Part shown: piece by piece, positions 6,260 to 51,844 of the stretch
How the letters are laid out: every line of letters starts with the position of its first letter
Numbering within the stretch: the stretch's first letter is position 1
Assembly: GCA_001770855.1 (NCBI GenBank)
Contig: MESE01000096.1
Span: 186,001-250,000, forward strand
Reading direction: 5' to 3'
From: Burkholderiales bacterium RIFCSPLOWO2_02_FULL_57_36
GTDB taxonomy: Bacteria > Pseudomonadota > Gammaproteobacteria > Burkholderiales > Burkholderiaceae_D
Length of the DNA stretch: 64,000 nucleotides
Program-made: the position numbers and the translations under genes
The notes under the pieces: model-generated
Told to the model about the DNA's origin: nothing
What the model saw: the letters and a program-made list of their open reading frames with translations, nothing else
Databases searched by the model: none

Positions 6260-8018
6260 CGGGGGTTCCGAACAGAATGCGGCCACTGCCATGCTGGCCG
6301 GCCGGAGAACTCAATTTGAATGTCACACAGGATTTTGATTGCTCGTGGACCAATTCCAGCGTGACCGCCTGCTCCGGATGAATCACTTGTTGAAACTTGA
6401 GCGCATTGATTCCCAGGAAAACCGGCGGCAGATCGAAGCACTTTCGGCCATAGGCAATGGCCCAATCGATTTGCACCACGCCGGGCAAAATAGGCGCGCC
6501 GGGAAAGTGACCGTCAAAATAAAACAGGTTGCGTGGCGCGGTCAGTTCGAACACGGCTCGCTGAGCTTCTTTCTCAAGCAGGCGCTCCCGCGGCATTTTT
6601 GGCGGTGCTGGCGTTTCATCGAGCAACGCTATCAGTTCCGCATGTGTCGTCTTGCCTTGCGCATTGACCGGCAACACATCCGGATATCGCCAGAGGCGCG
6701 GCAATGCGATCCGCTCCACGGAATGGATCAACCAATCGCGCATCGATTGGTTGAATGCGAGTTTTCCTTCGCGATCCAATTGCCCGCGGCCTTCGAATGA
6801 GGGCACGACGAACGCAGCGATTCTTTGACGCTTGCCGTCCAGCACCAGCACCCGGACATCGGTTACCAGCGATGAAGCAAGCAGCCGGTTTTCGATCGCA
6901 TCAAGCGAAATTCTTTTCTCTTCAATCTTCACGATACGGTCGGCACGCCCCTGCAGACTAAAGCGATTGTCGTTCGCGGCCAGCACGCGATCTCCCAATC
7001 GGAACCAGTTTGCATCGGGTAGATGGGCAGAACGTACCTCAAGCACGCCCCCGTCCCCGGTAGTCCGCCAATCGACATTTGCCATCGGCGTCCAGCCGTC
7101 GTCGGACTGCGCATGCCGTTGCCGCCACGCGATGCCGCCGGTTTCCGAGCTGCCGTAGACCTCAATCGGCGTCCGGCCCAGCAAGCGCTCTGCATCCAGT
7201 GCCACATTCAGGGGCAACGGACCGCCAGAAGAAAATATCGCATGCAATCGCTCCGCTGCATTCTTCCACGCCGGAATATCGGGCAGGCGCTTGAGATGGG
7301 CCGGGCTGGATATCAACGCGCAGTCATGTGTAGCCAGTACCGGCACCAGTTCCTCGGGATATGCAAAGCTGCGCGCATGAATCGCACGCCCGGCGGCCAA
7401 TGGCCACAACACTTTGAAGAGCAAACCGTAAATATGTTGATGCGATACCGTGGCGACGATATCGGCCGTACCCAGTTCGTCGCCGAACAGGCGTTCCAGC
7501 GTTGCGACTTCAGCCGATATTTGGCGAAGAAACTTCGGTATTGCCTGCGCAGCACCGGTGCTACCGGATGTGTGCACGACCAGACCGACAAAATCGGGAT
7601 TGAGCAGGTGAAAGCCATCCGCGCCGGTAGCGTTGCTGTTTTCTGCCGGAGCAAGCGGCGCCCATTGCATGTCGAACTCGCCGAGATAGCCATCGACATC
7701 GCGGCGCAAGGTCGCGCATGTGGCGGGTAAGGTATCGGCCGAAAGATAAATGGTTTTTCCTGCCTGCCATGCACCGAACAGCGCACAGGCGAATTCAATA
7801 CTGTCGCTGATATACAGCGCGAACTTCTTGCCCGGCGAGTCTGCCAGCAACGATCGCCAGGCGTGCACGCGTGCAAGGAAGTCATCGCGCAGCACCGGCT
7901 CCTGCTCGCGCCAACCGACTATACGATCAAGCGCTTGCGGTGCCGAAAGCAGGTCCAGGAAATCGACGGAATCAGACACTGTGCCGCCGCTTGAAATACA
8001 GCCGAGTAAGGAATTCAC
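6252..8018 (-). CDS. Acyl/aryl-ACP ligase fused to a FabA/FabZ-like dehydratase
   Basis: A two-domain protein of up to 588 residues. Residues about 25-455 are an ANL adenylate-forming enzyme: phosphate-binding loop VVHTSGSTGAAQAIPK, VYGSSETGG, GRADRIVKIEEKRI and the C-terminal catalytic Lys in NAQGKTTHAEL. Residues about 485-588 form a hot-dog dehydratase with the active-site motif GHFPGAPILPGVVQIDW. The catalytic His is present, and an Asp stands where FabZ has Glu. The ligase half would activate the arylacrylate starter and load it on an ACP; the other half would dehydrate 3-hydroxyacyl-ACP to the enoyl form. The start is uncertain: GTG at 8018 overlaps the upstream gene by 47 bp, while a GTG at 7979 gives an 8-bp overlap and loses only 13 residues. 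Confidence 0.85.
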   Translation of the reverse strand: MNSLLGCISSGGTVSDSVDFLDLLSAPQALDRIVGWREQEPVLRDDFLARVHAWRSLLADSPGKKFALYISDSIEFACALFGAWQAGKTIYLSADTLPATCATLRRDVDGYLGEFDMQWAPLAPAENSNATGADGFHLLNPDFVGLVVHTSGSTGAAQAIPKFLRQISAEVATLERLFGDELGTADIVATVSHQHIYGLLFKVLWPLAAGRAIHARSFAYPEELVPVLATHDCALISSPAHLKRLPDIPAWKNAAERLHAIFSSGGPLPLNVALDAERLLGRTPIEVYGSSETGGIAWRQRHAQSDDGWTPMANVDWRTTGDGGVLEVRSAHLPDANWFRLGDRVLAANDNRFSLQGRADRIVKIEEKRISLDAIENRLLASSLVTDVRVLVLDGKRQRIAAFVVPSFEGRGQLDREGKLAFNQSMRDWLIHSVERIALPRLWRYPDVLPVNAQGKTTHAELIALLDETPAPPKMPRERLLEKEAQRAVFELTAPRNLFYFDGHFPGAPILPGVVQIDWAIAYGRKCFDLPPVFLGINALKFQQVIHPEQAVTLELVHEQSKSCVTFKLSSPAGQHGSGRILFGTPDV

Positions 8019-40077: not shown

Positions 40078-40872
40078 CTAACGCACCAGCGCCTTGATCA
40101 CCGTCCACTGCCGCCGCGAAATCGGCAGCCGGTCATCGACGTCGCGCAAGATGACTTGCCATGACTCTTGCGCCTTTTCATTTTCGCCTTCCGGATCCAC
40201 CGTCTGGGATCCTCGTTCGACACCGATAATTGCCTTGCGCGCCACCAATGCATTTCGATGCACGCGGACGAATACCGCACCGAACTCCTCCTCGATGGAC
40301 AACAGCGACGCCTCAATCAGGTAATCGCGCATCTTGGTGCGAAGCGTGACATATTTCAGTTCCGCCTTCAGATAGATTACATCGGTCACCGGAACCAGCA
40401 ACAAGCGCCCGCGCTCCTGTACCGAAAAATGCTGACGCTTCATCCGCAGCGCCACGGCAGTGTCGGTAATTGCATCCTTTTGCAATGGAAGCTGTCCCCG
40501 CAAAGCGCTGACTCTCTGAATCGCTTCCGCGAGACGCGCGGCGCGGACGGGCTTCAACAAATAATCCAGCGCATGCACGTCGAATGCCTTGAGCGCATAT
40601 TCATCATGCGCGCTGATGAAAATAATCGAGGGAGCGCCGGTGAGCTCGCTGGACAGGTGACTTGCGAGTTCAAGCCCGGTCATCCCGGGCATTTGAACGT
40701 CAAGCAAGACGATATCCGGCCTGGTCCGGACAATCTCGTCCAGCGCATCCTGAGCGTGGCTTGCCGTTCCCGCCAAATGATGCGGGCATTGCTCCGCGAT
40801 GTCCGACAACAGCGTGATGAGCCTGGCGCGCGCCGGTGCTTCATCGTCGACAATAAACAGCCTTGGAATCAT
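40078..40872 (-). CDS. algR: LytTR response regulator, AlgR-like
   Basis: A 264-residue regulator: receiver with IVDDEAPARARL and phospho-acceptor Asp58 (LLDVQMPGMTG), then a C-terminal LytTR DNA-binding domain (AVFVRVHRNALVARKAI, SRRQW). The start overlaps the stop of the sensor kinase gene by 4 bp. Gene order (argH divergent from a LytS-type kinase plus this regulator, with hemC-hemD nearby) matches the algZ-algR region of Pseudomonas. The regulon here is unknown; in Pseudomonas AlgR affects type IV pili and alginate. Confidence 0.88.
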   Translation of the reverse strand: MIPRLFIVDDEAPARARLITLLSDIAEQCPHHLAGTASHAQDALDEIVRTRPDIVLLDVQMPGMTGLELASHLSSELTGAPSIIFISAHDEYALKAFDVHALDYLLKPVRAARLAEAIQRVSALRGQLPLQKDAITDTAVALRMKRQHFSVQERGRLLLVPVTDVIYLKAELKYVTLRTKMRDYLIEASLLSIEEEFGAVFVRVHRNALVARKAIIGVERGSQTVDPEGENEKAQESWQVILRDVDDRLPISRRQWTVIKALVR

Positions 40873-41912
40873 ACAGACACTTTCACGTAAGGAAATCGAA
40901 GCCGCACCTCGAAAAATCCGCGGGCCACGGTCGTCGTCAGTTGGGCCTCGACGTCATACAGCAATGTCAGTCGCTCGCGGATGTTTTCGAGCGCCATATG
41001 ATTGCCGGTGGATGGCGCATCGCCATGATATGGATTGACTACCGCAATCTCGATTCGGTCGATCGAGCGGCTCAGGTGAATCTGTATCAGTACCGGCTTG
41101 CTGCTGGGTTCGACACCGTAATGCACTGCGTTCTCCAGCAACGGTTGCAGCAGCAAAGACGGTATCTGCGCCTTGCGCAATACCTCATCGGTGACATCCA
41201 CCGCATCCCATTGCACCTGCAAGCGCTGGCCCAGCCTGACCTTTTCGATTGCCAAATATTGCTTGCATACGCGAACCTCGTCCTGCAATGTGGTCATGTC
41301 GCGTCCGTCGCGGATCAGCACCCTGAACAGGTCGGCCAGATCCTCCAGGGTGGTTTCGGCTTGGCGCGGCTCGGTCCGGATCAGCGACAGCACCGCATTC
41401 AGGCTGTTGAACAGGAAATGCGGCTGGATCCGCGCCTGCAGCGCCTGCAGGCGCGCTTCCGCCAGCGCCGGTGAAAACGCGCGAGTGCGCATTTCAAAAT
41501 AGTGCTGCAATACGATGCCGAACAATGCCGCAACCGACATCCCCTTGATCATCGTCAAATAGTTAAAGCTGTTCAGGAACAGCTCGAGCGACGATAAAAA
41601 CTGGATCAGCAGCGCAGTGACGGCAGCGGGCACCAGCGCACATACGGCACGCTGCCCCCATTGCGGAATTGTACCAATCAGCCGTCTTAACGCACATAGC
41701 ACCAGCAGCGACGACAGGCAAGCCAGTTCGACCAGAATCGACGATTCGACAAACTCGAGCAAACCCGGCCGAATTCCATTGGTCCGCAATAGAATCGCCG
41801 CCAGTACCGACACATTCACGGCAAGCAGCACCCGGAAAATCACCCCGATGTTGCAGCAATCCGGGATGACGATGTCGATGGGTCGACTGACAGACGCGGT
41901 GGATGACGGCAT
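40869..41912 (-). CDS. algZ: LytS-type sensor histidine kinase, AlgZ/FimS-like
   Basis: A 347-residue membrane kinase with four or five hydrophobic helices (residues about 25-150), then a His_kinase domain with the phospho-acceptor motif RIQPHFLFNSLNAVLSLIR and a degenerate HATPase (LLQPLLENAVHYG, LENIRERL). ATG 41912 (MPSSTASVSR) is preferred over 41975, which would leave almost no room for the argH promoter. It partners the LytTR regulator encoded with a 4-bp overlap. Confidence 0.86.
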   Translation of the reverse strand: MPSSTASVSRPIDIVIPDCCNIGVIFRVLLAVNVSVLAAILLRTNGIRPGLLEFVESSILVELACLSSLLVLCALRRLIGTIPQWGQRAVCALVPAAVTALLIQFLSSLELFLNSFNYLTMIKGMSVAALFGIVLQHYFEMRTRAFSPALAEARLQALQARIQPHFLFNSLNAVLSLIRTEPRQAETTLEDLADLFRVLIRDGRDMTTLQDEVRVCKQYLAIEKVRLGQRLQVQWDAVDVTDEVLRKAQIPSLLLQPLLENAVHYGVEPSSKPVLIQIHLSRSIDRIEIAVVNPYHGDAPSTGNHMALENIRERLTLLYDVEAQLTTTVARGFFEVRLRFPYVKVSV

Positions 41913-42002
41913 AAGCGGATAGCTTTGTTGTGATGAGACGCTGGAACACGGTGCGCTTGTTCTATAATCGAGCAATTCACCAGGACTTGAAACCTATTTA
42001 TT

Positions 42003-43397
42003 ATGACAGCACAACTTTCCAAAAAAAGCGAGGCCTGGTCGGCCCGGTTTTCCGAACCTGTCTCCGATTTGGTAAAACGCTACACCGCTTCGGTTTTTTT
42101 CGACAAACGTCTCGCGCAATTCGATATCCAGGGCTCGCTGGCGCATGCGGAAATGCTGGCGCACCAGAACATCATCAGCAGCCAGGACTACGCCGATATC
42201 CAGCGCGGCATGACGCAAATCCAGTCGGAAATCGCCTCCGGCAAGTTCGAATGGCTGCTTGACCTGGAAGATGTGCATCTCAATATCGAAAAGCGCCTGA
42301 CCGAGCTGGTCGGCGATGCCGGCAAGCGTTTGCACACCGGGCGTTCGCGCAACGATCAGGTCGCCACCGACATTCGTCTTTATCTGCGTACCGCGATCGA
42401 TGACATCAAGGTGTTATTGCGTGAACTGCGTCTGGCATTGGTCGACCTGGCCGAGCAGCATGCGGAAACCATCCTGCCCGGCTTTACCCATATGCAGGTG
42501 GCGCAACCGGTGACCTTCGGTCACCATATGCTCGCGTATGTCGAAATGTTCGGACGCGACGCGGAACGCATGGCTGATTGCCGCAAGCGCGTCAACCGCT
42601 TGCCGCTCGGTGCGGCAGCGCTTGCAGGAACGACGTTTGCCATCGACCGCGAGCGTGTTGCCGCCACACTCGGTTTTGACGATGTATGCCGGAACTCGCT
42701 CGACGCTGTCTCCGATCGCGATTTTGCGATCGAATTTTGCGCCGCCTCCGCATTGGTGATGACGCATATCTCGCGCATGTCGGAAGAACTGGTGATCTGG
42801 ATGAGCCCTCGGGTTGGCTTCATCGACATCGCCGATCGGTTCTGCACCGGATCGAGCATCATGCCGCAAAAGAAAAATCCCGACGTGCCGGAATTGGCAC
42901 GCGGCAAGACCGGACGCGTCAACGGGCACTTGATCGCGCTGCTGACGCTGATGAAAGGGCAGCCACTGGCATACAACAAGGACAATCAGGAAGACAAGGA
43001 GCCGCTGTTCGATACCGTCGACACGGTGGTCGACACCTTGCGTATCTTCGCCGACATGGCGCGCGGGATTACGGTCAAGGCCGACGCGATGCGCGCGGCT
43101 GCGCTGCAAGGCTATGCCACTGCCACGGATCTGGCGGATTATCTGGTCAAAAAGGGATTGCCGTTCCGCGATGCGCACGAAGCGGTGGCTCGTGCGGTAC
43201 GCGCTTGCGTCGACAAGAATTGCGACCTTAGCGATTTGACACTGGATGAAATGCGCGCGTTTTCACCGCTGATCGAACAGGATATTTTCAGTGTTCTGAC
43301 GCTTGAAGGTTCTGTCCGTGCCCGCGATCATGTAGGCGGAACGGCACCCGGTCAGGTACGTACTGCGATCGCGCGCATACGGGCTGAATTGACCTGA
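42003..43397 (+). CDS. argH: Argininosuccinate lyase
   Basis: A 464-residue member of the fumarase/aspartase superfamily. Landmarks: [27 protein letters not shown], the signature [20 protein letters not shown] with catalytic Ser in the flexible loop, and C-terminal VGGTAPGQV. It cleaves argininosuccinate to arginine and fumarate. It is divergent from the algZ-like gene and followed by a long gap. Confidence 0.97.
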
Positions 43398-44136
43398 ACG
43401 TCCCATTATCTGTAGTAGTTGCGCTCATCCAAAAAAATTTGGAGCTGCGGACGTATGTATTGCGATTTGGCCCCTTTATTTAGTCGTCTTATGCAATCTC
43501 GTAGATGCTTCATTGGCAAGAGCCGTCAATTTTTCTGATTAAAATACCGCATAGCCTCTTCCTTAAAAATCAATTCAACGTTAGTCCTTGAATGAAAATA
43601 CGTAGTACTACTTAGTGCGAAATACGTAGTACTACTTAGACTTGGTGCAAAATTCGACCATTCGATCGTTTCATCAATATACTCACGCTCATTGGCGAAA
43701 ATTGTGAAAAAATCGCTGCGTTACAGGGAAGCTATGCATTTGCAAGATTGAAATGTCATATACTGCCGCGAGTTCTGCAACAGAACGCAAACACCAGTTC
43801 ACATTATAAAAACAGTCTGTTAAGACGATTAATGACTTTTCAAGGATGGAGACAAATCGTGTTTGTTTTGCACTCTTTTGCGCTAGCCGTTGACAAAATC
43901 GTCAGCTCTCGCGGTGACATCGTAAATTCAAGCTTGCCGCCGACGCGCCGGATTTCCGATGCGATACCGCTATCCATTATTTTCCGGGCTTCAAGTTCAA
44001 TTCATGGCAGCTATCCCGGGGATGGGTTTAATTATTGCCGTGCTGCCAGACTTGGCGCATGCGATCAAACAAGGTAAACATTGGCTAATGGATACCGTCA
44101 GAAAACCCGGATGCATTACTTCAAACTGGATCCCAT
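43398..44136. other. Long AT-rich intergenic region upstream of the TRAP permease genes
   Basis: A 739-bp stretch with no convincing gene. Plus-strand open frames at 43748-44077 and 43959-44153 have unlike-protein composition; the second contains a short hydrophobic peptide and may be a relic. The region carries the duplicated CTACGTAG-like element at 43596-43639, about 500 bp before dctQ, so the transcript may have a long leader or the promoter may be recent. No clear terminator follows argH. Confidence 0.55.
43596..43639 (+). promoter_or_regulatory. Two 20-bp direct repeats made of phased 8-bp operator units
   Basis: The same 20-bp sequence, AAATACGTAG followed by TACTACTTAG, occurs at 43596-43615 and 43620-43639. 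Each copy contains two 8-bp units (ATACGTAG and CTACTTAG) whose starts are 10 bp apart, with GTAGTACTAC as a perfect central palindrome. The units match the CTACGTAG triplet upstream of dctP at 49761-49788. I infer a binding site for a regulator shared by the two halves of the transporter. Confidence 0.65.
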
Positions 44137-44745
44137 ATGAAACTCTTACTTAAAATATCCAGCCTGATCGACTGGATCAATGAACGGGTCGGGCACGGCT
44201 TGATGTGGCTGATTCTGGCTGCCGTGCTTATCAGCGCCGGAAATGCCATCGTGCGCAAAGCCTTTAACATGAGCTCCAACGCACTTCTTGAAGTCCAGTG
44301 GTATCTGTTCTCCGCGGTGTTCCTGTTCGGCTCCGGCTATGCTTTCCTGAAAAACATCCACGTGCGCATCGACTTTCTGTCGAACCGGCTGTCGCCGAAA
44401 ACGCGCTCCTGGATCGATATCATCGGCATCATCGTTTTTCTCACGCCGCTCTGCCTGCTGCTGATTTTTCTCTCCTGGCCACTCTTCGTCAACGCCTGGG
44501 AAAGCGGCGAAATGTCGCAAAATGCGGGCGGCCTGATTCGCTGGCCTGTATATGCGCTGATACCGATCGGCATGACCCTTTTACTGATGCAGGGCGTGTC
44601 CGAATTAATCAAGCGCATCGCCTTTTTGTATGGCTTGATCCCGGATCCTCTTGCTCATGGCGAGCATTCCGAAAACGCCCACGCGGAGCAGATTCAAGAA
44701 GCGATATCAGTGCATATAACGGATACGTCAAGGGATAAAGCGTAA
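44137..44745 (+). CDS. TRAP transporter small permease (DctQ/FcbT2-like)
   Basis: A 202-residue membrane protein with four helices (residues about 15-35, 50-70, 90-115, 140-160) and the DctQ family pattern (EVQWYLFSAVFLFGSGYAFLKNIHVRIDFL). The C-terminal tail of about 40 residues is hydrophilic. It pairs with the large permease, whose ATG overlaps this stop codon (TAATG). The VRIDFL...RSWIDIIG form fits the mannitol/chloroaromatic branch (COG4665). The ribosome binding site is weak. Confidence 0.93.
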   Translation: MKLLLKISSLIDWINERVGHGLMWLILAAVLISAGNAIVRKAFNMSSNALLEVQWYLFSAVFLFGSGYAFLKNIHVRIDFLSNRLSPKTRSWIDIIGIIVFLTPLCLLLIFLSWPLFVNAWESGEMSQNAGGLIRWPVYALIPIGMTLLLMQGVSELIKRIAFLYGLIPDPLAHGEHSENAHAEQIQEAISVHITDTSRDKA

Positions 44746-46532
44746 TGGAATTCATCACTCAAAACTTCGTTCCCCTGATGTTTGTCGGGCTGCTGGTATT
44801 TTTGCTTACCGGCTTTCCGGTTGCCTTCGGCCTGGCAGCCACCGGTCTTACCTTCGGATTGCTTGGCATGGCGGCCGGACTATTTCCTCAAGTGCTGTTT
44901 CAAGCCTTGCCGCTTCGGCTGTTTGGCATCATGCAGAACGATACGTTACTGGCCATTCCTTTCTTTACCTTGATGGGGATTATTCTGCAGCGCAGCGGCA
45001 TGGCCGAGGATCTATTGGAAACCGTCGGGCAGGTGTTTGGACCGTTACGCGGCGGTCTGGCGCTCGCAGTCGTCTTCGTCGGCGCGTTGCTGGCCGCGAC
45101 CACCGGTGTCGTGGCCGCCGCCGTCATCTCCATGGGCCTGATTTCTCTGCCGATCATGCTGCGTTACGGTTACAACCGCACGGTCGCCACCGGCGTCATT
45201 ACCGCGTCAGGCACCTTGGCTCAAGCGATCCCGCCTTCGCTGGTGTTGATCGTCATGGCTGACCAGTTAGGCCGTTCCGTAGGCGACATGTATGCGGGTG
45301 CGATGTTGCCAGCCGGGATGCTCGTCGGCCTGTATGCGCTGTTCATCGTTGCACTCGCTTTTTTCCGCCCCAAATGGGTGCCGGCGCTGCCACCTGAAGC
45401 GCTTATCTATAAGGAAGAGAACGGCGCAACCGGTCACAAATCCCTGTTGGCAATCCTTTCGATTGCTGCCGCCGCCGGATTTGGCTGGGCAGCGGTGCAC
45501 GATAGAATCATGGGCCCGCTGCTGGATCGCTCAATGAATGCAGGCACCGATGAAATCATCATCATGTCGATGACGGTTGCATCCTTCACCGCACTCAGTC
45601 TGGCGCTTGCAAATCGGTTGCTGAAATTGAAGCTGCTGTCGCAACTTTCCGAGCGGGTTACCTTCGTGCTGATTCCGCCCCTGGTCCTGATCTTTCTCGT
45701 GCTGGGTACTATTTTCCTCGGCATCGCAACGCCGACCGAAGGCGGCGCGATGGGCGCGCTCGGTGCGGGGATCATGGCGATCGCGCGTCGTCAGCTCAAT
45801 CTAAACTTGCTCAAGCAGGCGCTGGACAATACGGTACGGCTCTCCTGCTTCGTCATGTTTATCCTGATCGGTTCGACGGTGTTCAGCTTTACATTCAATG
45901 CCGCCGACGGCCACATCTGGGTCGAGCATCTGTTCGAAAAGTTGCCGGGCGGCCCGATAGGCTTCCTGATCGCGGTGAACATCCTGGTATTCGTGCTTGG
46001 CATGTTCATCGACTTCTTTGAGATTGCCTTCATCGTTATCCCGATCCTTGCACCGGTGGCCGACAAAATGGGCATCGACCTGATCTGGTTCGGCATCATC
46101 ATTTCACTGAACCTGCAGACGTCGTTCCTGACGCCGCCTTTCGGTTTCGCACTGTTTTATCTGCGCAGCGTGGCGGCCAGATCGGATTACAACGACAAAA
46201 TCACGAACCAGCGCATTCCGGCTGTCACGACAACGCAAATCTACAAGGGTTCGGTCGCCTTCATCTTCATCCAACTGGTCATGGTCGGCTTGATTATCGC
46301 CTTCCCGAATCTTGTCTTGGGCAATCTTGATAAAGGCCCGAAGGTGGACTTTAGCACTATCAAGCTCGAGGCTGAAACAGGCAATTACGGGAAAAAGATG
46401 GATGATCCAATGGACCTGTTCGCACCGGTGCCGGAGGAAAACCAACCGGTTCAGCCCAATGGCGATGCCAAGGAAGAGGATCCGATGGAGGCGATCAGAC
46501 GCTCGCTTGAGCAAGACAAGGATAAAAAATAA
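44745..46532 (+). CDS. TRAP transporter large permease (DctM/FcbT3-like)
   Basis: A 595-residue DctM subunit with about 12-14 helices; it contains LLAATTGVVAAAVISMGLISLPIML, ASGTLAQAIPPSLVLIVMADQ and TPTEGGAMGALGAG, typical of Na+-coupled TRAP permeases. It is longer than common DctM proteins (about 425 residues) because of a central insertion (residues about 220-310) and a hydrophilic, acidic C-terminal tail of about 70 residues, features of the COG4664 FcbT3 branch. With the DctP protein encoded at 48533-49615 it should import an organic acid; the substrate is not evident. Confidence 0.93.
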   Translation: MEFITQNFVPLMFVGLLVFLLTGFPVAFGLAATGLTFGLLGMAAGLFPQVLFQALPLRLFGIMQNDTLLAIPFFTLMGIILQRSGMAEDLLETVGQVFGPLRGGLALAVVFVGALLAATTGVVAAAVISMGLISLPIMLRYGYNRTVATGVITASGTLAQAIPPSLVLIVMADQLGRSVGDMYAGAMLPAGMLVGLYALFIVALAFFRPKWVPALPPEALIYKEENGATGHKSLLAILSIAAAAGFGWAAVHDRIMGPLLDRSMNAGTDEIIIMSMTVASFTALSLALANRLLKLKLLSQLSERVTFVLIPPLVLIFLVLGTIFLGIATPTEGGAMGALGAGIMAIARRQLNLNLLKQALDNTVRLSCFVMFILIGSTVFSFTFNAADGHIWVEHLFEKLPGGPIGFLIAVNILVFVLGMFIDFFEIAFIVIPILAPVADKMGIDLIWFGIIISLNLQTSFLTPPFGFALFYLRSVAARSDYNDKITNQRIPAVTTTQIYKGSVAFIFIQLVMVGLIIAFPNLVLGNLDKGPKVDFSTIKLEAETGNYGKKMDDPMDLFAPVPEENQPVQPNGDAKEEDPMEAIRRSLEQDKDKK

Positions 46533-46618
46533 TCGGCGGCTACGTTGTCGCCGCCGGTTCCCTGTTTCTTTCGAAGCTTGGCAATGCCATGAAAGAATTC
46601 AGGACTTGATATTCAAGA

Positions 46619-46650
46619 GCCGCGCCCTGACAGGGTTTGCGGCTTTTTTT
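46619..46650 (+). terminator. Rho-independent terminator after dctM
   Basis: GCCGCGCCCTG pairs with CAGGGTTTGCGGC (one mismatch region), followed by seven T. It lies 86 bp after the dctM stop. Confidence 0.85.
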
Positions 46651-46714
46651 ATTTATGCAAAAGCGCGTGCATTGCACAATTCCGGCACTATGCAGCGCGC
46701 TCCGCACAATCGGC

Positions 46715-48471
46715 ATAGGGGCGGCCAGTAAACTGACCGGTCCCCTGCCACACCACCCGGCATGCGGGTCCGCACCGGGCGGTTCGAGTAGTTGAGGTTT
46801 AACATAGGCGAGGTACGCCGAGGCGGTCGAAGTAGGCAATCGTGAGTACGCTGTTCAGCAATTTCGCACTATTGCGCCACCATTCATCGAGTTCACGCCA
46901 AACCGTGGGGGTTTGCGCCAAACCGTGGGGGTTTGCGCCAAACCGAAATACCCTTTCCATCCCAGTAAATATGGACGTAGTGTTGCCACCACCTCCTGCA
47001 TGCTACGACCACCGGGGCGGCCGGTCAGCTCGCGGATGCGTTGTTTGAACGTTGCCAGCGGCTTCTCGGCCACCTTGCGTTTGACTTCGCGCCCACGCGC
47101 CACCCACAGACTGTAACCGAGGAACTCGCGGCCAAAGACGCTGGCCACTGCGCTTTTGCTGTCGTTGACCAGTAAGTGCAGCTTGGCATAACAACGGCGC
47201 AGCAGTGTCATCACCCGCTGGCCCGCCCGCACGATATGAACATACACGTTCGCATCGTCGGCGTAGCGCGCAAAGCAATGCCCGCGCCTTTCTAGCTCCT
47301 TGTCCACCTCGTCGAGCATCACGTTGGCCAGTAGAGGACTGAGCGGACCGCCTTGCGGCGTCCCTTCGTGCCGCAACTGCGCCACGCCGTGGTCCATGAT
47401 GCCGCTGTTCAGATAGGCACGGACCAGCCGGATCACTCCGGCGTCATCAATGCGTTTCCGTAGTCGGTCGATCAGGATGTCATGGTTGACCCGGTCAAAG
47501 AACTTCGGCAGGTCTACGTCGACCACGACCCGCAGACCGGATTGGACATACGCTTGAGCGGCTAACACCGCTTCTTGCGCACGCCTGCCCGGACGAAAGC
47601 CGTAGCTATGCTCGCTGAAAGTGGGATCAAGCATCGGTTGCAGCACCTGTAGCAGTGCTTGCTGGATCAAGCGATCCGTCACCGCGGGATGCCGAGCTCG
47701 CGCTCGCCACCATCAGGCTTAGGAATTGTCACCCGACGCACCGGACTGGGCCGGTACGTCCCTGTTAGCAGTTGCTCTCGTATGCGCCACCACGCAGTCG
47801 CCAGATGACGGGACGTCTGGTTGATATCCAGTCCATCCACACCCGCCGCTCCCTTGTTGGCACGCCTTGTTGGCACGTACACGCTTGAACGCCCGCCGCA
47901 GGTTCTCTGTCGTCAGCACCGCTTGCAGCAGCGCCGACCCCGTGTCTCCGGTGGCAGGTCGCGGGCAGAACGCTTCGTCGCTGAAAGCATCAGGCATGGC
48001 TTCACCTTGCCCTATGGCCTCCCGCCCCGCGCAAGCAGGCATCTGACGCTTTGCTTCCTGCATCGACATATCGGAAATCACTCCTACTCGTTCGGTCCTT
48101 CGTCGGCGGGGTCGAGCCTTCCCAGCGCTACCACCAACTACTATGACCTCTGCTGAGACCCCGGCTCCGGCCTTCACCGTCGCCCTTTTAGGCGCAAGAC
48201 GGGGCGTCCCCAGGTAAGGGTCGCACTCCTTCATCACACAACCGCCGCATTTACGCCGCCTTTCCTTGACCACAAGAGCTTCACGGTTTCTAGCCCGCTC
48301 GCCCTGATCGGCAGCGCCTTTTATGCGATTCGTGTTCCTCGGCTCATGATTTATGCTCCACGCTTCCTTCCCACACTCGGTTGCCCTCATGCAGTTGCGC
48401 TTCACTTCGCTCACTGTGGTCAGCTCGCGGCGGGACTTTCACCCACAGGAGTGCGCCCATGCTGGGCGCAC
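46715..48471 (-). mobile_element. Group II intron inserted at the dctP terminator
   Basis: The element is about 1.76 kb. On the minus strand it begins at 48471 with GTGCGCCCAGCATGGGCGC, a typical bacterial group II 5' end, directly after the T-run of the dctP terminator. A domain V hairpin lies at 46752-46783 (ACCGCCCGG pairing with CCGGGTGGT around an ACCC tip), followed by a domain VI-like segment; the 3' end is near 46709-46715 (CCCCTAT). Insertion just behind a terminator stem is the target preference of bacterial class C introns. Orientation is the same as dctP. The internal maturase gene is broken, so the copy cannot move by itself, though its RNA may still splice if helped in trans. 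Confidence 0.88.
46799..48069 (-). pseudogene. Group II intron reverse transcriptase/maturase, multiply disrupted
   Basis: The coding path runs through at least three frames. From ATG 48069 (MSMQEAKRQMPACAG) it reads to AFKRVRANK, where a 13-bp tandem duplication (47853-47877) shifts the frame. It resumes as GAAGVDGLDINQ and stops at about 47683, where one base is missing between GIP and VTDRLIQQ. The third part carries the RT core (YGFRPGRRAQEAV, DVDLPKFFDRVNHD, GTPQGGPLSPLLANV, FARYADDANVYV). Near the end a 20-bp tandem duplication (46896-46935) shifts again, and about 60 residues of the maturase domain appear deleted before the tail KLLNSVLTIAYFDRLGVPRL and stop at 46799-46801. The YADD catalytic motif itself is intact. 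Confidence 0.88.
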
Positions 48472-48472
48472 C

Positions 48473-48507
48473 AAAAAAAACCCACGCGGCTTGCGCCGCG
48501 TGGGTTT
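48473..48507 (-). terminator. Rho-independent terminator of dctP, site of intron insertion
   Basis: A perfect 10-bp stem (CCCACGCGGC at 48481-48490 with GCCGCGTGGG at 48495-48504) and a 4-nt loop; on the minus strand it is followed by eight T (48480-48473). The group II intron begins two bases later. It lies 25 bp after the dctP stop. Confidence 0.93.
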
Positions 48508-48532
48508 AGTCCGAGTACGGACGAATTACGAA

Positions 48533-49615
48533 TTACAGTTTTTGCGATTGCATGAAGTCGTCAAAGCCGGCTTCGGTAAAGCGGAACCAAAGGTTTGAAT
48601 CGGCACGGAACTTCGCGAAATCTGTGTAAACCTTCTTCCAGTTCGCGTTCTTCGCAGAGAGCTCACTGTAAAGCGCCTGCGATTCCTTGAAGGCAGCCTC
48701 CATGATCGGCTTCGAAAAGCGATGCAACTTGGCGCCGCCAGCCACCAACTTCTTCAAGGCATCCGGATTGCGAGCGTCATAACTCGCTTGCATGACTATG
48801 TGCGCATGAGAAGCCGCTGCTTCGACGATCGCCTTGTTCTCCGCCGACAGCGCGTCGTAGGCTTTTTGATTGACAAACAGCTCCAGTTGCGGTCCGCCTT
48901 CCCACCAGCCAGGGTAGTAGTAATGCGGCGCCACTTTTTGGAAACCCAGCTTCAGATCGTCATATGGCCCAACCCACTCCGCAGCATCAATCGTACCTTT
49001 CTCCAACGCTTGATAGACCTCTCCACCGGGAATGTTTTGCGGTACACCGCCAATACGCTCCAGCACCTTGCCGCCGAAACCGCCAATGCGCATCTTCAGG
49101 CCTTTGATGTCCTCAAGCGAATTTACTTCCTTGCGATACCAGCCGCCCATCTGTGCACCGGTATTGCCCATCGCGAAATTGACGATATTGTAATTTTTGT
49201 AAAACTCGCGCATGAGCGTCAGCCCGTTGCCGTCATAGTACCAGGCAGTCATCTGGCGCGAGTTCAGCCCGAATGGGATAGCACAGCCGAGAGCGAAGGT
49301 CTCATCCTTGCCGAAGAAATAATATGGTGCGGTATGGGCACATTCAACTGTGCCGTTCTGCACGCCATCGACTACACCGAACGCCGGCATCAGTTCGCCG
49401 CCGGCATGCACCGAAATCGTGAACTTGCCGCCCGACATGGCGTTTACAGCCTTGGCGAAGACATCAGCAGCGCCAAAAATAGTGTCCAGTGCCTTGGGGA
49501 AGCTGGAAGCAAGCCGCCAACGTACCTGCGCTTGCGCATTCACAATGGCTGGTGCTGCGATGGCACCGGCACCTACTGCAACCGTGGCTTTCTTAAGAAA
49601 GGAACGACGTTCCAT
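48533..49615 (-). CDS. TRAP transporter substrate-binding protein (DctP/FcbT1-like)
   Basis: A 360-residue periplasmic binding protein. The ATG at 49615 has an AGGAGA ribosome binding site and opens a Tat-type signal peptide (MERRSFLKKATVAVGAGA...NAQA) with the twin Arg followed by FLKK. The mature part is DctP-like: FPKALDTIFGAADVFAKAVN, the conserved Arg region KGLKMRIGGFGGKVLERIGG, and AAEWVGPYDDLKLGFQKVAPHYYYPGW, which is typical of the mannitol/chloroaromatic group (COG4663). It would deliver substrate to the DctQM permease at 44137-46532, encoded convergently 2 kb away. Confidence 0.94.
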   Translation of the reverse strand: MERRSFLKKATVAVGAGAIAAPAIVNAQAQVRWRLASSFPKALDTIFGAADVFAKAVNAMSGGKFTISVHAGGELMPAFGVVDGVQNGTVECAHTAPYYFFGKDETFALGCAIPFGLNSRQMTAWYYDGNGLTLMREFYKNYNIVNFAMGNTGAQMGGWYRKEVNSLEDIKGLKMRIGGFGGKVLERIGGVPQNIPGGEVYQALEKGTIDAAEWVGPYDDLKLGFQKVAPHYYYPGWWEGGPQLELFVNQKAYDALSAENKAIVEAAASHAHIVMQASYDARNPDALKKLVAGGAKLHRFSKPIMEAAFKESQALYSELSAKNANWKKVYTDFAKFRADSNLWFRFTEAGFDDFMQSQKL

Positions 49616-49760
49616 ATTGTTGTCTCCTAAAGGATTTAAACACCAAAAACTATGCGGCACCGCTCTTGTGATGCGGACGCACAATCTAGCTTCACGCTGC
49701 CGGAAATTGTAGAGCGCCGATGGGATTGCTGCAATAAAAGAATCGCTCAACAGGGTCGGG

Positions 49761-49788
49761 CTACGTAGTTCTACGTAGAACTACGTAG
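49761..49788. promoter_or_regulatory. Perfect 28-bp palindrome of three phased CTACGTAG units
   Basis: Three copies of the 8-bp palindrome CTACGTAG start at 49761, 49771 and 49781, joined by TT and AA, so the whole 28 bp equals its own reverse complement. The 10-bp spacing places all units on one DNA face. It lies 145 bp upstream of the dctP start and just behind the pmbA 3' end (stop at 49809), so it probably controls dctP. Related units occur upstream of dctQM at 43596-43639. The binding protein is unknown. Confidence 0.75.
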
Positions 49789-49808
49789 TGAAAGCTGCTA
49801 AAACACGC

Positions 49809-51173
49809 TTAACCGCCGGCGACGACCATCTCTTCAATGAGGATGGAACCAGTCTGCTTCGTGCCCCGAATCAGGACGTCGGCACCGACGGCCACAATTT
49901 GACGGAGAATATTTTTCATGTTGCCGGCAATGGTGATTTCTTCCACCGGATATTGGATAACGCCCTTTTCGACCCAGTATCCGGATGCACCGCGCGAATA
50001 ATCGCCGGTAACATAATTCACACCTTGCCCCATCAATTCCGTGACGAGCAAACCGGTGTCGAGCTTGCGCAGCATTGCCTTGAAATCATCAGCAGGCGTA
50101 GTCAGCGACGATGTCAATGACAAATTATGCGAGCCGCCGGCATTGCCGGTGGTTTTCATGCCGAGCTTGCGCGCCGAATAAGTCGACAGGAAATATCCTT
50201 GCACCACGCCATCCTTTACCACGTCGCGCCGGTGGGTTTTGACACCTTCTTCATCGAACGGCGAAGAGCCGACCTCACCCGGAATATGCGGGTCTTCAAG
50301 GATTTGAATGTGCGGTGCGAATACCTGCTTGCCCAAGGAATCGAGCAGGAAGGTCGACTTGCGATAAAGCGCACCGCCGGATACGGCTTGGACGAATGCT
50401 CCCAGCAACCCGGCCGCCAATGGTGCTTCAAACAGGACGGGACACGTGCGCGTATCGAGTTTGTGCGCATTCAGACGCGCCAATGCCCGTTCGGCGGCAT
50501 AACGGCCGACATCTTCCGGCCTGGCCAGCCTTTTCGGATCGCGCATCGATGAATACCAATCGTCGCGCTGCATGTTTGCCCCTTTCCCGGCGATCGGCAC
50601 CACAGAAATGGTATGACGCGAGTAAGGATATCCGCCCATGAAACCGCGGGTATTGGCGGAAATAAAATGCGATTGCTGCGCATAAACACTTGCGCCCTCG
50701 CTATTGGTAATGCGTTTATCCACCGCAAATGCCGCCGCCTCGCCGCGTTTTGCCAGTTCGACCGCTTCTTCCGCCGAAATCAACCACGGGTAACACAACT
50801 GCAGATCCATCGGGTTCATCTCGAATGCGTCGGCGTCCGGCAAACCGGCGCAATTGTCTTCCGCGGTAAAGCGGGCGATGTTGTAAGCGGCATCAACAGT
50901 GTCTTTTAATGCCTGCCGGGAAAAATCGGAAGTGCTTGCATTGCCGCGTCGAATCGAATTTTCGTTGCCTAAATAGACCGTTACGCCGATACCCTTGTCT
51001 TTATTCTGTTCAATGGTTTCGATATTTCCCTTGCGTACCGTGACGGACAGGCCGTTTCCTTCGCTGATTTCGACCGCCGCATCGGACGCGCCTTTTTCCT
51101 TTGCGAAACGCAGCACATCCTGCGCGAGCTGTTTTAATTGGTCCTGGCTATGAATAAAGATGGAATCGCTCAT
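49809..51173 (-). CDS. pmbA: PmbA/TldE metalloprotease-like protein
   Basis: A 454-residue PmbA (TldE). It shows the N-terminal DAAVEISEGNGLSVTVRKGNIE, the central VFMPPEAAGLLG-equivalent PVLFEAPLAAGLLGAF, and the C-terminal SRGASGYWVEKGVIQYPVEEITIAGNM. With TldD it forms a heterodimer that degrades or matures peptides such as microcin B17 and CcdA; TldE itself lacks the zinc-binding HExxxH motif, and none is seen here. It is divergent from yjgA/darP, as in Escherichia coli. tldD is not in the window. Confidence 0.95.
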   Translation of the reverse strand: MSDSIFIHSQDQLKQLAQDVLRFAKEKGASDAAVEISEGNGLSVTVRKGNIETIEQNKDKGIGVTVYLGNENSIRRGNASTSDFSRQALKDTVDAAYNIARFTAEDNCAGLPDADAFEMNPMDLQLCYPWLISAEEAVELAKRGEAAAFAVDKRITNSEGASVYAQQSHFISANTRGFMGGYPYSRHTISVVPIAGKGANMQRDDWYSSMRDPKRLARPEDVGRYAAERALARLNAHKLDTRTCPVLFEAPLAAGLLGAFVQAVSGGALYRKSTFLLDSLGKQVFAPHIQILEDPHIPGEVGSSPFDEEGVKTHRRDVVKDGVVQGYFLSTYSARKLGMKTTGNAGGSHNLSLTSSLTTPADDFKAMLRKLDTGLLVTELMGQGVNYVTGDYSRGASGYWVEKGVIQYPVEEITIAGNMKNILRQIVAVGADVLIRGTKQTGSILIEEMVVAGG

Positions 51174-51259
51174 GAGATGGTGTTTTTCGAAATACGTATA
51201 AAACAGTTATGATAGCAGTCGTTTACCGACTGCCTTTGAGACCCACCCATTTCCCCACT

Positions 51260-51844
51260 ATGCCAAATCCAAATCGAGGCGCCTGCGGCTTCCAATCGAA
51301 TGAATTCGAGCAGGAGTACGATCGCCCATCCAAGTCGCAATTAAAACGCGAAATGACCGCGTTGCAAAAATTGGGCGCAGAGCTGATCGCTGAACCGAAA
51401 GAGCGCGTGAAGCGCGTCCCGATGCCCGAAGATGTGCGGGACGCGATTCTCGAATGCCAATTGATCAAGGACCATGAAGGCCGACGCAGGCAGCTCCAGT
51501 ATGTTGGAAAAAAAATGCGTACGCTTGATGAGGACGAACTCGCCGCGATTCAAAGGACGCTCGATAGCTGGAAAGGCGCGTCCAAAACCGAAACGGCGGC
51601 GATGCACGCACTCGAACGAAAGCGCGAAAAATTATTGAGCAATGACAGCGCACTGACCGACTTGCGCGCGGAGCACCCGGAAGTGGATGTTCAGCACTTG
51701 CGTATCCTGATCCGTAACGCCCGCAAAGAGCAAGCCGAGAATAAGCCGCCCAAGGCATATCGTGAAATTTTCCAGATACTGAAACAATTGCAATCGAAAA
51801 CAACGCCGCAAGAGCCTGAGCCGCATGACGAATCCGAAGAATGA
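51260..51844 (+). CDS. darP: Ribosome biogenesis factor YjgA/DarP (DUF615)
   Basis: A 194-residue DUF615 protein, highly charged and helical, with SKSQLKREMTALQKLGAEL, LIKDHEGRRRQLQYVGKKMR and HLRILIRNARKEQ. ATG 51260 (MPNPNRGACG) is the plausible start; the frame upstream runs into the divergent promoter. The family associates with the late 50S subunit precursor. It overlaps the mog gene by 20 bp, so the two are translationally linked. Confidence 0.94.
   Translation: MPNPNRGACGFQSNEFEQEYDRPSKSQLKREMTALQKLGAELIAEPKERVKRVPMPEDVRDAILECQLIKDHEGRRRQLQYVGKKMRTLDEDELAAIQRTLDSWKGASKTETAAMHALERKREKLLSNDSALTDLRAEHPEVDVQHLRILIRNARKEQAENKPPKAYREIFQILKQLQSKTTPQEPEPHDESEE

Follow-up and report, generated by a model that had tools for sequence, protein, structure and literature searches.

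The stretch of DNA analysed here, hereafter called the window, comprises 64,000 nucleotides from Burkholderiales bacterium RIFCSPLOWO2_02_FULL_57_36 and carries the genes of a TRAP transporter. These genes are arranged in two convergent units, dctQM and dctP, and a palindromic element lies between the second of these and a pmbA/tldE-like gene that is likewise on the minus strand. The features relevant to the present analysis are as follows.

43598 to 43615, no strand assigned: ATACGTAGTACTACTTAG, first proposed operator copy upstream of dctQM (matrix score 23.2)
43622 to 43639, no strand assigned: ATACGTAGTACTACTTAG, second proposed operator copy, 24 bp further on and about 500 bp before dctQ (matrix score 23.2)
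44137 to 44745, plus strand: dctQ, TRAP small permease (Pfam DctQ, 1.7e-21)
44745 to 46532, plus strand: dctM, TRAP large permease (Pfam DctM, 1.1e-90)
48533 to 49615, minus strand: dctP, TRAP solute-binding protein (Pfam DctP, 3.4e-63; phmmer 5e-125 to 2hzk)
49706 to 49711, minus strand: TACAAT, candidate -10 element of dctP (pattern match only)
49761 to 49788, no strand assigned: 28-bp palindrome of three CTACGTAG units in 10-bp steps, proposed dctP operator
49809 to 51173, minus strand: pmbA/tldE-like gene, upstream of the proposed operator (Pfam PmbA_TldD domains)
49810 to 49828, minus strand: terminator-like hairpin with a T-run at the pmbA end, before the 28-mer (pattern match only)

A sequence-only reading of the window had described the element as a perfect 28-bp palindrome, built from three 8-mers in 10-bp steps and situated 145 bp from dctP. 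This description stands: read directly, CTACGTAGTTCTACGTAGAACTACGTAG equals its own reverse complement, its units start at positions 49761, 49771 and 49781, and the dctP start on the minus strand is at 49615. The 18-bp unit of the element, CTACGTAGNNCTACGTAG, can be read as inverted heptamers separated by a 2-bp gap (TACGTAG-NN-CTACGTA), which is a NarL-like 7-2-7 arrangement seen here and in relatives. The 28-mer then consists of two overlapping dyads (49762-49777 and 49772-49787) that have the middle unit in common. This 7-2-7 reading and the two further sites upstream of dctQM go beyond the earlier description. The proposal that the operator is a cooperative one fared less well, given that this genome alone among 275 sequences has three copies of the degenerate core TRCGYA at 10-bp steps and that the aligned sites of relatives are two-unit dyads. 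A promoter scan reported no sigma-70 site at the candidate -10 element of dctP.

The nearest solved chain to the dctP product is 2hzk/2hzl, which we take to be TakP and whose structure file carries the name SmoM; the alignment to 2hzk covers residues 1-358 (phmmer, 5e-125), and a ketoacid-binding protein, 7ug8, is also close. TakP of Rhodobacter sphaeroides binds pyruvate, as described in the part of PMC5812351 consulted. We infer that the window encodes a TakP-like TRAP transporter, with a predicted substrate of the pyruvate type.

Other features of the neighbourhood deserve mention in their own right. The interval between the convergent dctM and dctP genes contains a group II intron (46855-48414), with a match to Rfam group-II-D1D4-3 at 48219-48390 on the minus strand, one reading frame that matches a maturase and another ahead of it. 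Apart from this intron, Rfam returned nothing at gathering scores across 43000-51500. Between the operator copies and dctQ there are about 500 bp without a clear gene (43640-44136), possibly a long leader, and the corresponding interval in the related genome G207 is about 175 bp. Finally, genes for a LytTR-type regulator and a His_kinase-type sensor are located at 40078-41975, adjoining argH (assigned by Pfam).

Close matches to the site are confined to the two TRAP units

At up to 3 mismatches, CTACGTAGNNCTACGTAG has four matches in the window, versus 0.01 expected from shuffles, and none of 100 shuffles reached four. Two of these matches overlap inside the 28-mer, and the other two are the copies at 43598-43615 and 43622-43639. 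The sequence-only reading had favoured an operator over a terminator or a chance palindrome, and had named random scattering in the genome as one outcome that would count against this view. The whole assembly (5.4 Mb in 151 contigs, 97.5% complete, 5.2% estimated contamination) was searched, and matches within 2 mismatches were found solely in the 28-mer and the two copies upstream of dctQM, such that both TRAP units, and no other place in the genome, carry a match this close. Allowing 3 mismatches adds two places that fall within reading frames, L005 with a matrix score of 19.8 and L006 with one of 10.7.

Bare counts are less telling. A backwards-pattern control outnumbers the true pattern in this genome, with 47 versus 6 matches at up to 3 mismatches and 6 versus 4 at up to 2, and the argument therefore rests on the placement of the sites rather than on their number. 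Similarly, a loose pattern, CTRCGYAGNNCTRCGYAG, matches 114 of 195 family genomes when 1 mismatch is allowed, and its counts are of the same order as those of the backwards control across the 195 family genomes (3 versus 5 in this genome). Seven of the 30 loose-pattern loci were read, none of these seven was tied to this TRAP transporter, and we draw no association from them.

The site recurs beside a kinase/regulator pair in relatives

Matches with up to 2 mismatches are present in 7 of 60 genomes including the one studied here, or 6 of the 59 others. In three of these six (G017, G025 and G027), the site occupies the divergent gap between cstA, whose product was assigned by Pfam, and a gene pair for a Cache-domain kinase and a LuxR-type response regulator. 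In two of the remaining three (L091 and L092), the site lies by genes without an evident link, and the last (L087) was left out.

Seventeen sites from cstA/kinase gaps in family genomes, and none from TRAP promoters, were used to build a scoring matrix. The matrix is not wholly independent, because a degenerate version of the window motif was used to pick each site as the best match. The matrix gives 27.9 for each of the two dyads of the 28-mer and 23.2 for each of the dctQM copies, and the next-best position in the window scores 8.9. Ten random 5.4-Mb sequences contained on average 0.1 sites scoring at least 22 and 1.2 scoring at least 18; the highest random score, from one of the ten sequences, was 23.4, which exceeds the 23.2 of the dctQ sites. 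The choice of sites for the matrix was circular, yet the core 8-mer TACGTAGT is also recovered when no motif is supplied. In a motif-free count over 15 cstA/kinase gaps, which stem from related genomes, TACGTAGT is present in 13 of 15 and TGCGTAGT also in 13 of 15, with shuffles reaching at most 4. The best motif matches in these 15 gaps have 0-3 mismatches, versus 6-8 at 15 other family kinase loci. Some gaps of this kind, such as L143 at 7225-7300, have an extra TACGCA unit 13 bp before the dyad, and TGCGCTTG is common to 10 of the 15.

An orphan kinase/regulator pair is encoded in the same genome

The genome under study yields 20 matches to the GerE domain, 19 of them over the cut-off. Among these 20, the regulator L095 is the best match of the regulators from G017, G025 and G027 (62-71% identity), and the kinase encoded beside it is 60-69% identical to the kinases of those relatives. 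The location of this pair is given below.

Contig C64, 15059 to 16417: MctS-like kinase, with the regulator gene starting at C64:16432; orthologous pair

The kinase comprises sCache_2 (at C64:15200), HisKA_3 and HATPase_c domains, and its LuxR-type partner comprises Response_reg (7.1e-29) and GerE (1.4e-19) domains according to Pfam. NarL is among the nearest solved chains of the regulator, and the sCache_2 domain is similar to domains of chemoreceptors. In Pseudomonas syringae, a chemoreceptor domain of Cache-like type is described as binding C2 and C3 carboxylates including pyruvate (PMC5062169, in part). In NCBIfam, the best match of the kinase is MctS (467.9 bits against a cut-off of 700) and that of the regulator is MctR (233.9 bits against a cut-off of 300). 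The pair is closest to rhizobial MctS/MctR, and the regulator can be proposed as MctR-like; because neither curated cut-off is reached, it should not be called MctR itself.

In this genome the pair is an orphan, located between clpA/clpS-like and icd-like genes (named by eye) and not adjoining the TRAP genes. The surroundings of the pair on C64 yielded no convincing site, and no CstA match was found in this 97.5% complete assembly. The contig that carries the pair is not the one that carries the TRAP genes, and contamination of the assembly is estimated at 5.2%. The base composition of C64 and the window agrees: tetranucleotide use compares at 0.905-0.961 between them and at 0.916-0.948 among pieces of the window.

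Pair, site and transporter genes are linked in relatives

The kinase is encoded in 93 of 195 family genomes, own included (E <= 1e-60). We read 49 kinase loci, namely the best 30 of the family and 19 from the set of named dctP homologues described below. In 27 of the 49, the pair adjoins candidate transporter genes, with cstA present in 22 and dctQ directly after the regulator gene in 5; the other 22 have neither. Three of the five regulator-dctQ gaps carry sites of 22.1, 22.1 and 19.4 bits, and the other two carry only a weak 1.3. No 12-16-mers are shared between the regulator-dctQ and dctP upstream regions within these five genomes. Upstream of dctP itself, a site of 19.7 is present in G022 and one of 6.0 in G024.

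Genomes with orphan pairs also carry the site. In G207, CTACGTAGAACTACGCAG lies in the argH-dctQM gap, matching the location of the sites from position 43598 in the window. In G104, G138 and G196 (L246, L251 and L252, at about 1501), the site precedes a gene for a membrane protein of about 470 residues, which Pfam assigns to CitMHS_2 in G104 and which is possibly another target. These observations come from 7 of 16 site loci (L253, L246, L251, L252, L256, L247 and L248), among which the site lies at dctQ in L253, at the kinase gene in L256 and without a clear target in L247 and L248.

The dctP promoters were also compared with the occurrence of the kinase. A near-full-length kinase is encoded in 19 of the 80 genomes with named dctP homologues (8 of 18, 8 of 50 and 3 of 12 in the three groups). 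An upstream score of at least 8 is reached at dctP in 4 of the 19 genomes with the kinase versus 1 of the 61 without it (one-sided Fisher p = 0.010, uncorrected for kinship), and a Mann-Whitney comparison of the scores of all 80 promoters is borderline (p = 0.052). Fifteen of the 19 kinase-bearing genomes have no dctP site at this score. Weaker sites occur at the same promoter position in four of them (L017, L028, L058 and L074), cstA is present in the kinase locus of five (L047, L069, L075, L079 and L081, in some cases through a short match at the edge of the locus), and six have neither. Sites are also present in genomes that lack the kinase, at dctP in L024 (12.8) and at dctQ in L010 (10.5) and L032 (8.8).

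Inspection of nine dctP promoters of relatives, including that of L024, placed TAGAAT 44-47 bp from the dyad centre, on its downstream side. The spacing is longer in the window, where 58 bp separate TACAAT from the centre of the nearer dyad, and TAnAAT is common anyway (49 of 81 dctP promoters). If the transcription start is taken to lie 12 bp downstream of the initial T of TAGAAT, the dyad of the relatives lies about 56-59 bp before the start, a position that suits an activator.

Proposed operator and recognition helix differ together between rhizobia and beta/gammaproteobacteria

Kinase matches were present in 184 plasmid records, from which 12 loci were read (7 rhizobial and 5 from beta- and gammaproteobacteria). 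The pair adjoins candidate transporter genes in 11 of the 12. Six of the seven rhizobial loci contain an exact CTACCCA-N4-TGGGTAG, in the same frame as the TACGTAG dyad, in the regulator-mctP gap in three cases and in the regulator-TRAP gap in three. The Agrobacterium locus has a 3-mismatch form upstream of dctQ, a level that chance also reaches (83 of 240 shuffles). In four of the five beta/gamma loci, a TACGTA dyad is located between cstA and the pair, with 30.8 bits in Pseudomonas mandelii; in the fifth, from Burkholderia cenocepacia, neither cstA nor the site was found. Among 240 shuffled plasmid loci, 10 gave a best match with 2 mismatches and none gave a closer one.

The recognition helices of 17 regulators, which are related to one another, were compared. 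The sequence SVRT is present in all 10 beta/gamma regulators and S/T-x-AT in 6 of the 7 rhizobial ones, with SERT in Agrobacterium. The L272 regulator has SVRT, yet no site was found in its locus. Operator and recognition helix differ together, a correlation that fits direct contact between them.

A putative operator for an MctR-like regulator

We consider it very probable that the palindrome is bound by a two-component regulator akin to rhizobial MctS/MctR. More specifically, we hold with good confidence that the 28-mer is the operator of an MctR-like, NarL-type regulator that acts with an sCache_2-containing, MctS-like kinase and probably activates the TakP-like TRAP genes. What can be read from sequence comprises the site, its placement at both TRAP units, the orthologous pair, and the linkage of pair, site and transporter genes in relatives, where sites stand at the promoters of one linked set of regulator and transporter genes as an operator should. 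The sequence-only reading had suggested either FixJ/NarL-type or TetR-type proteins. The former part of this suggestion is favoured by the linked GerE-type regulator and by the 7-2-7 geometry, whereas nothing for the TetR part came out of the analysis, in which the genome was searched for GerE-type regulators.

By this model, the sCache_2 kinase would detect a ligand, probably pyruvate or another short carboxylate, and phosphorylate the regulator. A regulator dimer would then bind TACGTAG-NN-CTACGTA upstream of dctP and dctQM and switch on both halves of the transporter, activation seeming a better fit than repression. The three-unit palindrome could offer the dimer two overlapping registers.

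The most serious competitor, which we regard as unlikely, is that the 28-mer serves another DNA-binding protein as operator, either a further GerE-type regulator or a TetR-type repressor, and resembles an MctR-like site by chance. Nineteen GerE matches over the cut-off offer other candidates, other dimeric proteins might also fit 8-bp palindromes spaced at 10-bp intervals, and the case for MctR-like binding is built from sequence comparisons. Against this stand the recurrence of the site between or adjoining the genes of one kinase/regulator pair in beta- and gammaproteobacteria, and the related site in alphaproteobacteria, where the operator differs and the recognition helix differs with it. 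Control by the LytTR-type regulator and sensor whose genes lie at 40078-41975 seems highly improbable. These genes are only 3 kb from the dctQ sites, they encode LytTR and His_kinase domains, and the best NCBIfam match of the regulator is BtsR, a pyruvate-linked regulator. At 143 bits, however, this match falls well short of the BtsR cut-off of 246; direct repeats are the binding sites of LytTR proteins, and in the relatives that were read the sites accompany the sCache_2 pair instead.

Two further explanations dispense with a DNA-binding protein. That the element forms a terminator or an mRNA-stabilising hairpin at the end of pmbA strikes us as very improbable, even though it begins about 20 bp past the pmbA stop codon and its transcript folds into a hairpin, with 12 bp in the stem and 4 bases in the loop (z -3.4). 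No T-run follows the 28-mer, which is not reported as an intrinsic terminator, whereas a separate terminator-like hairpin with a T-run precedes it; moreover, the sites at dctQ and the aligned sites of relatives are two-unit dyads before transporter or regulator genes. Least credible, along with the LytTR proposal, is a repeat family or chance palindrome with no regulatory role. Site counts no higher than those of the backwards pattern in its own genome, together with degenerate forms in many genomes, are what such a repeat would produce. Its weakness is that sites with up to 2 mismatches are placed at both TRAP units only, that four window matches face an expectation of 0.01, and that the site recurs at linked genes in relatives.

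If the 28-mer is indeed an operator for an MctR-like regulator, regulators of this kind appear to govern pyruvate-type uptake systems that differ from one bacterium to another, by way of a near-identical DNA signal. On balance we favour a broader proposal, held with less assurance than the operator assignment, in which one MctR-like lineage controls at least three unrelated transporter families (MctP, CstA and TRAP), and perhaps CitMHS_2 as a fourth, across alpha-, beta- and gammaproteobacteria by way of the frame CTAC-N10-GTAG. Transporters would have been exchanged under a kept regulator and operator, and the helix would have changed with the operator core (CGTAG to CCCA). The analysis offers a predicted DNA operator for the MctR-like regulator family, assigns likely targets to an orphan two-component pair, and predicts the cargo of a TRAP transporter. 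It would also present a case of the transporter changing while the switch stays, and the paired change of operator and recognition helix may serve as a handle on DNA choice by NarL-type regulators.

Comparison with known systems

Sites for NarL and NarP are 7-2-7 inverted heptamers of consensus TACYYMT. The element described here resembles them in its TAC-starting inverted heptamers, its 2-bp gap and the Response_reg and GerE domains of the candidate regulator. It differs in the heptamer itself (TACGTAG) and in its three overlapping units, and nitrate signalling is not implied.

Two other regulators of carboxylate-related genes were considered as identities and rejected. CrbR, a LuxR-type regulator of acetate-use genes, recognizes the ACTU motif, which is likewise an inverted repeat, in this case an imperfect one (PMC5715377, in part). 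This motif is TACTACCATCGTCGAAT-like, however, and the sensor is of the SLC5/STAC type rather than sCache_2; compared by eye with the motif as given in that source, the 28-mer is unlike TACTACCATCGTCGAAT. The RpuR site at Sinorhizobium fredii mctP offers another instance of two-component control of a pyruvate-linked transporter, but it is an imperfect direct repeat of different sequence that is coupled to an SLC5/STAC sensor, according to the portion of PMC9100948 consulted.

The closest parallel is MctS/MctR. In Rhizobium a Cache domain is part of MctS, and the system controls MctP, a carrier of pyruvate, lactate and alanine (PMC9100948, in part). No operator for the MctR-like family was found in a limited literature search or in the MctS/MctR text of that article. 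The pair in our genome shares with MctS/MctR the combination of a Cache-type kinase and a LuxR-type partner, each with its best NCBIfam match there, and a 7-2-7 site lies in the same frame between mctR and mctP on R. leguminosarum pRL10. The two systems are distinguished by 42.5% identity to the pRL10 kinase (H24) and scores below the equivalog cut-offs, by a target that here would be a TRAP transporter unlinked to the pair, and by the operator core, which is CGTAG here and CCCA in the rhizobial system. As for that proposed target, its relation to TakP of Rhodobacter sphaeroides is one of full-length similarity between dctP and 2hzk, the nearest solved chain.
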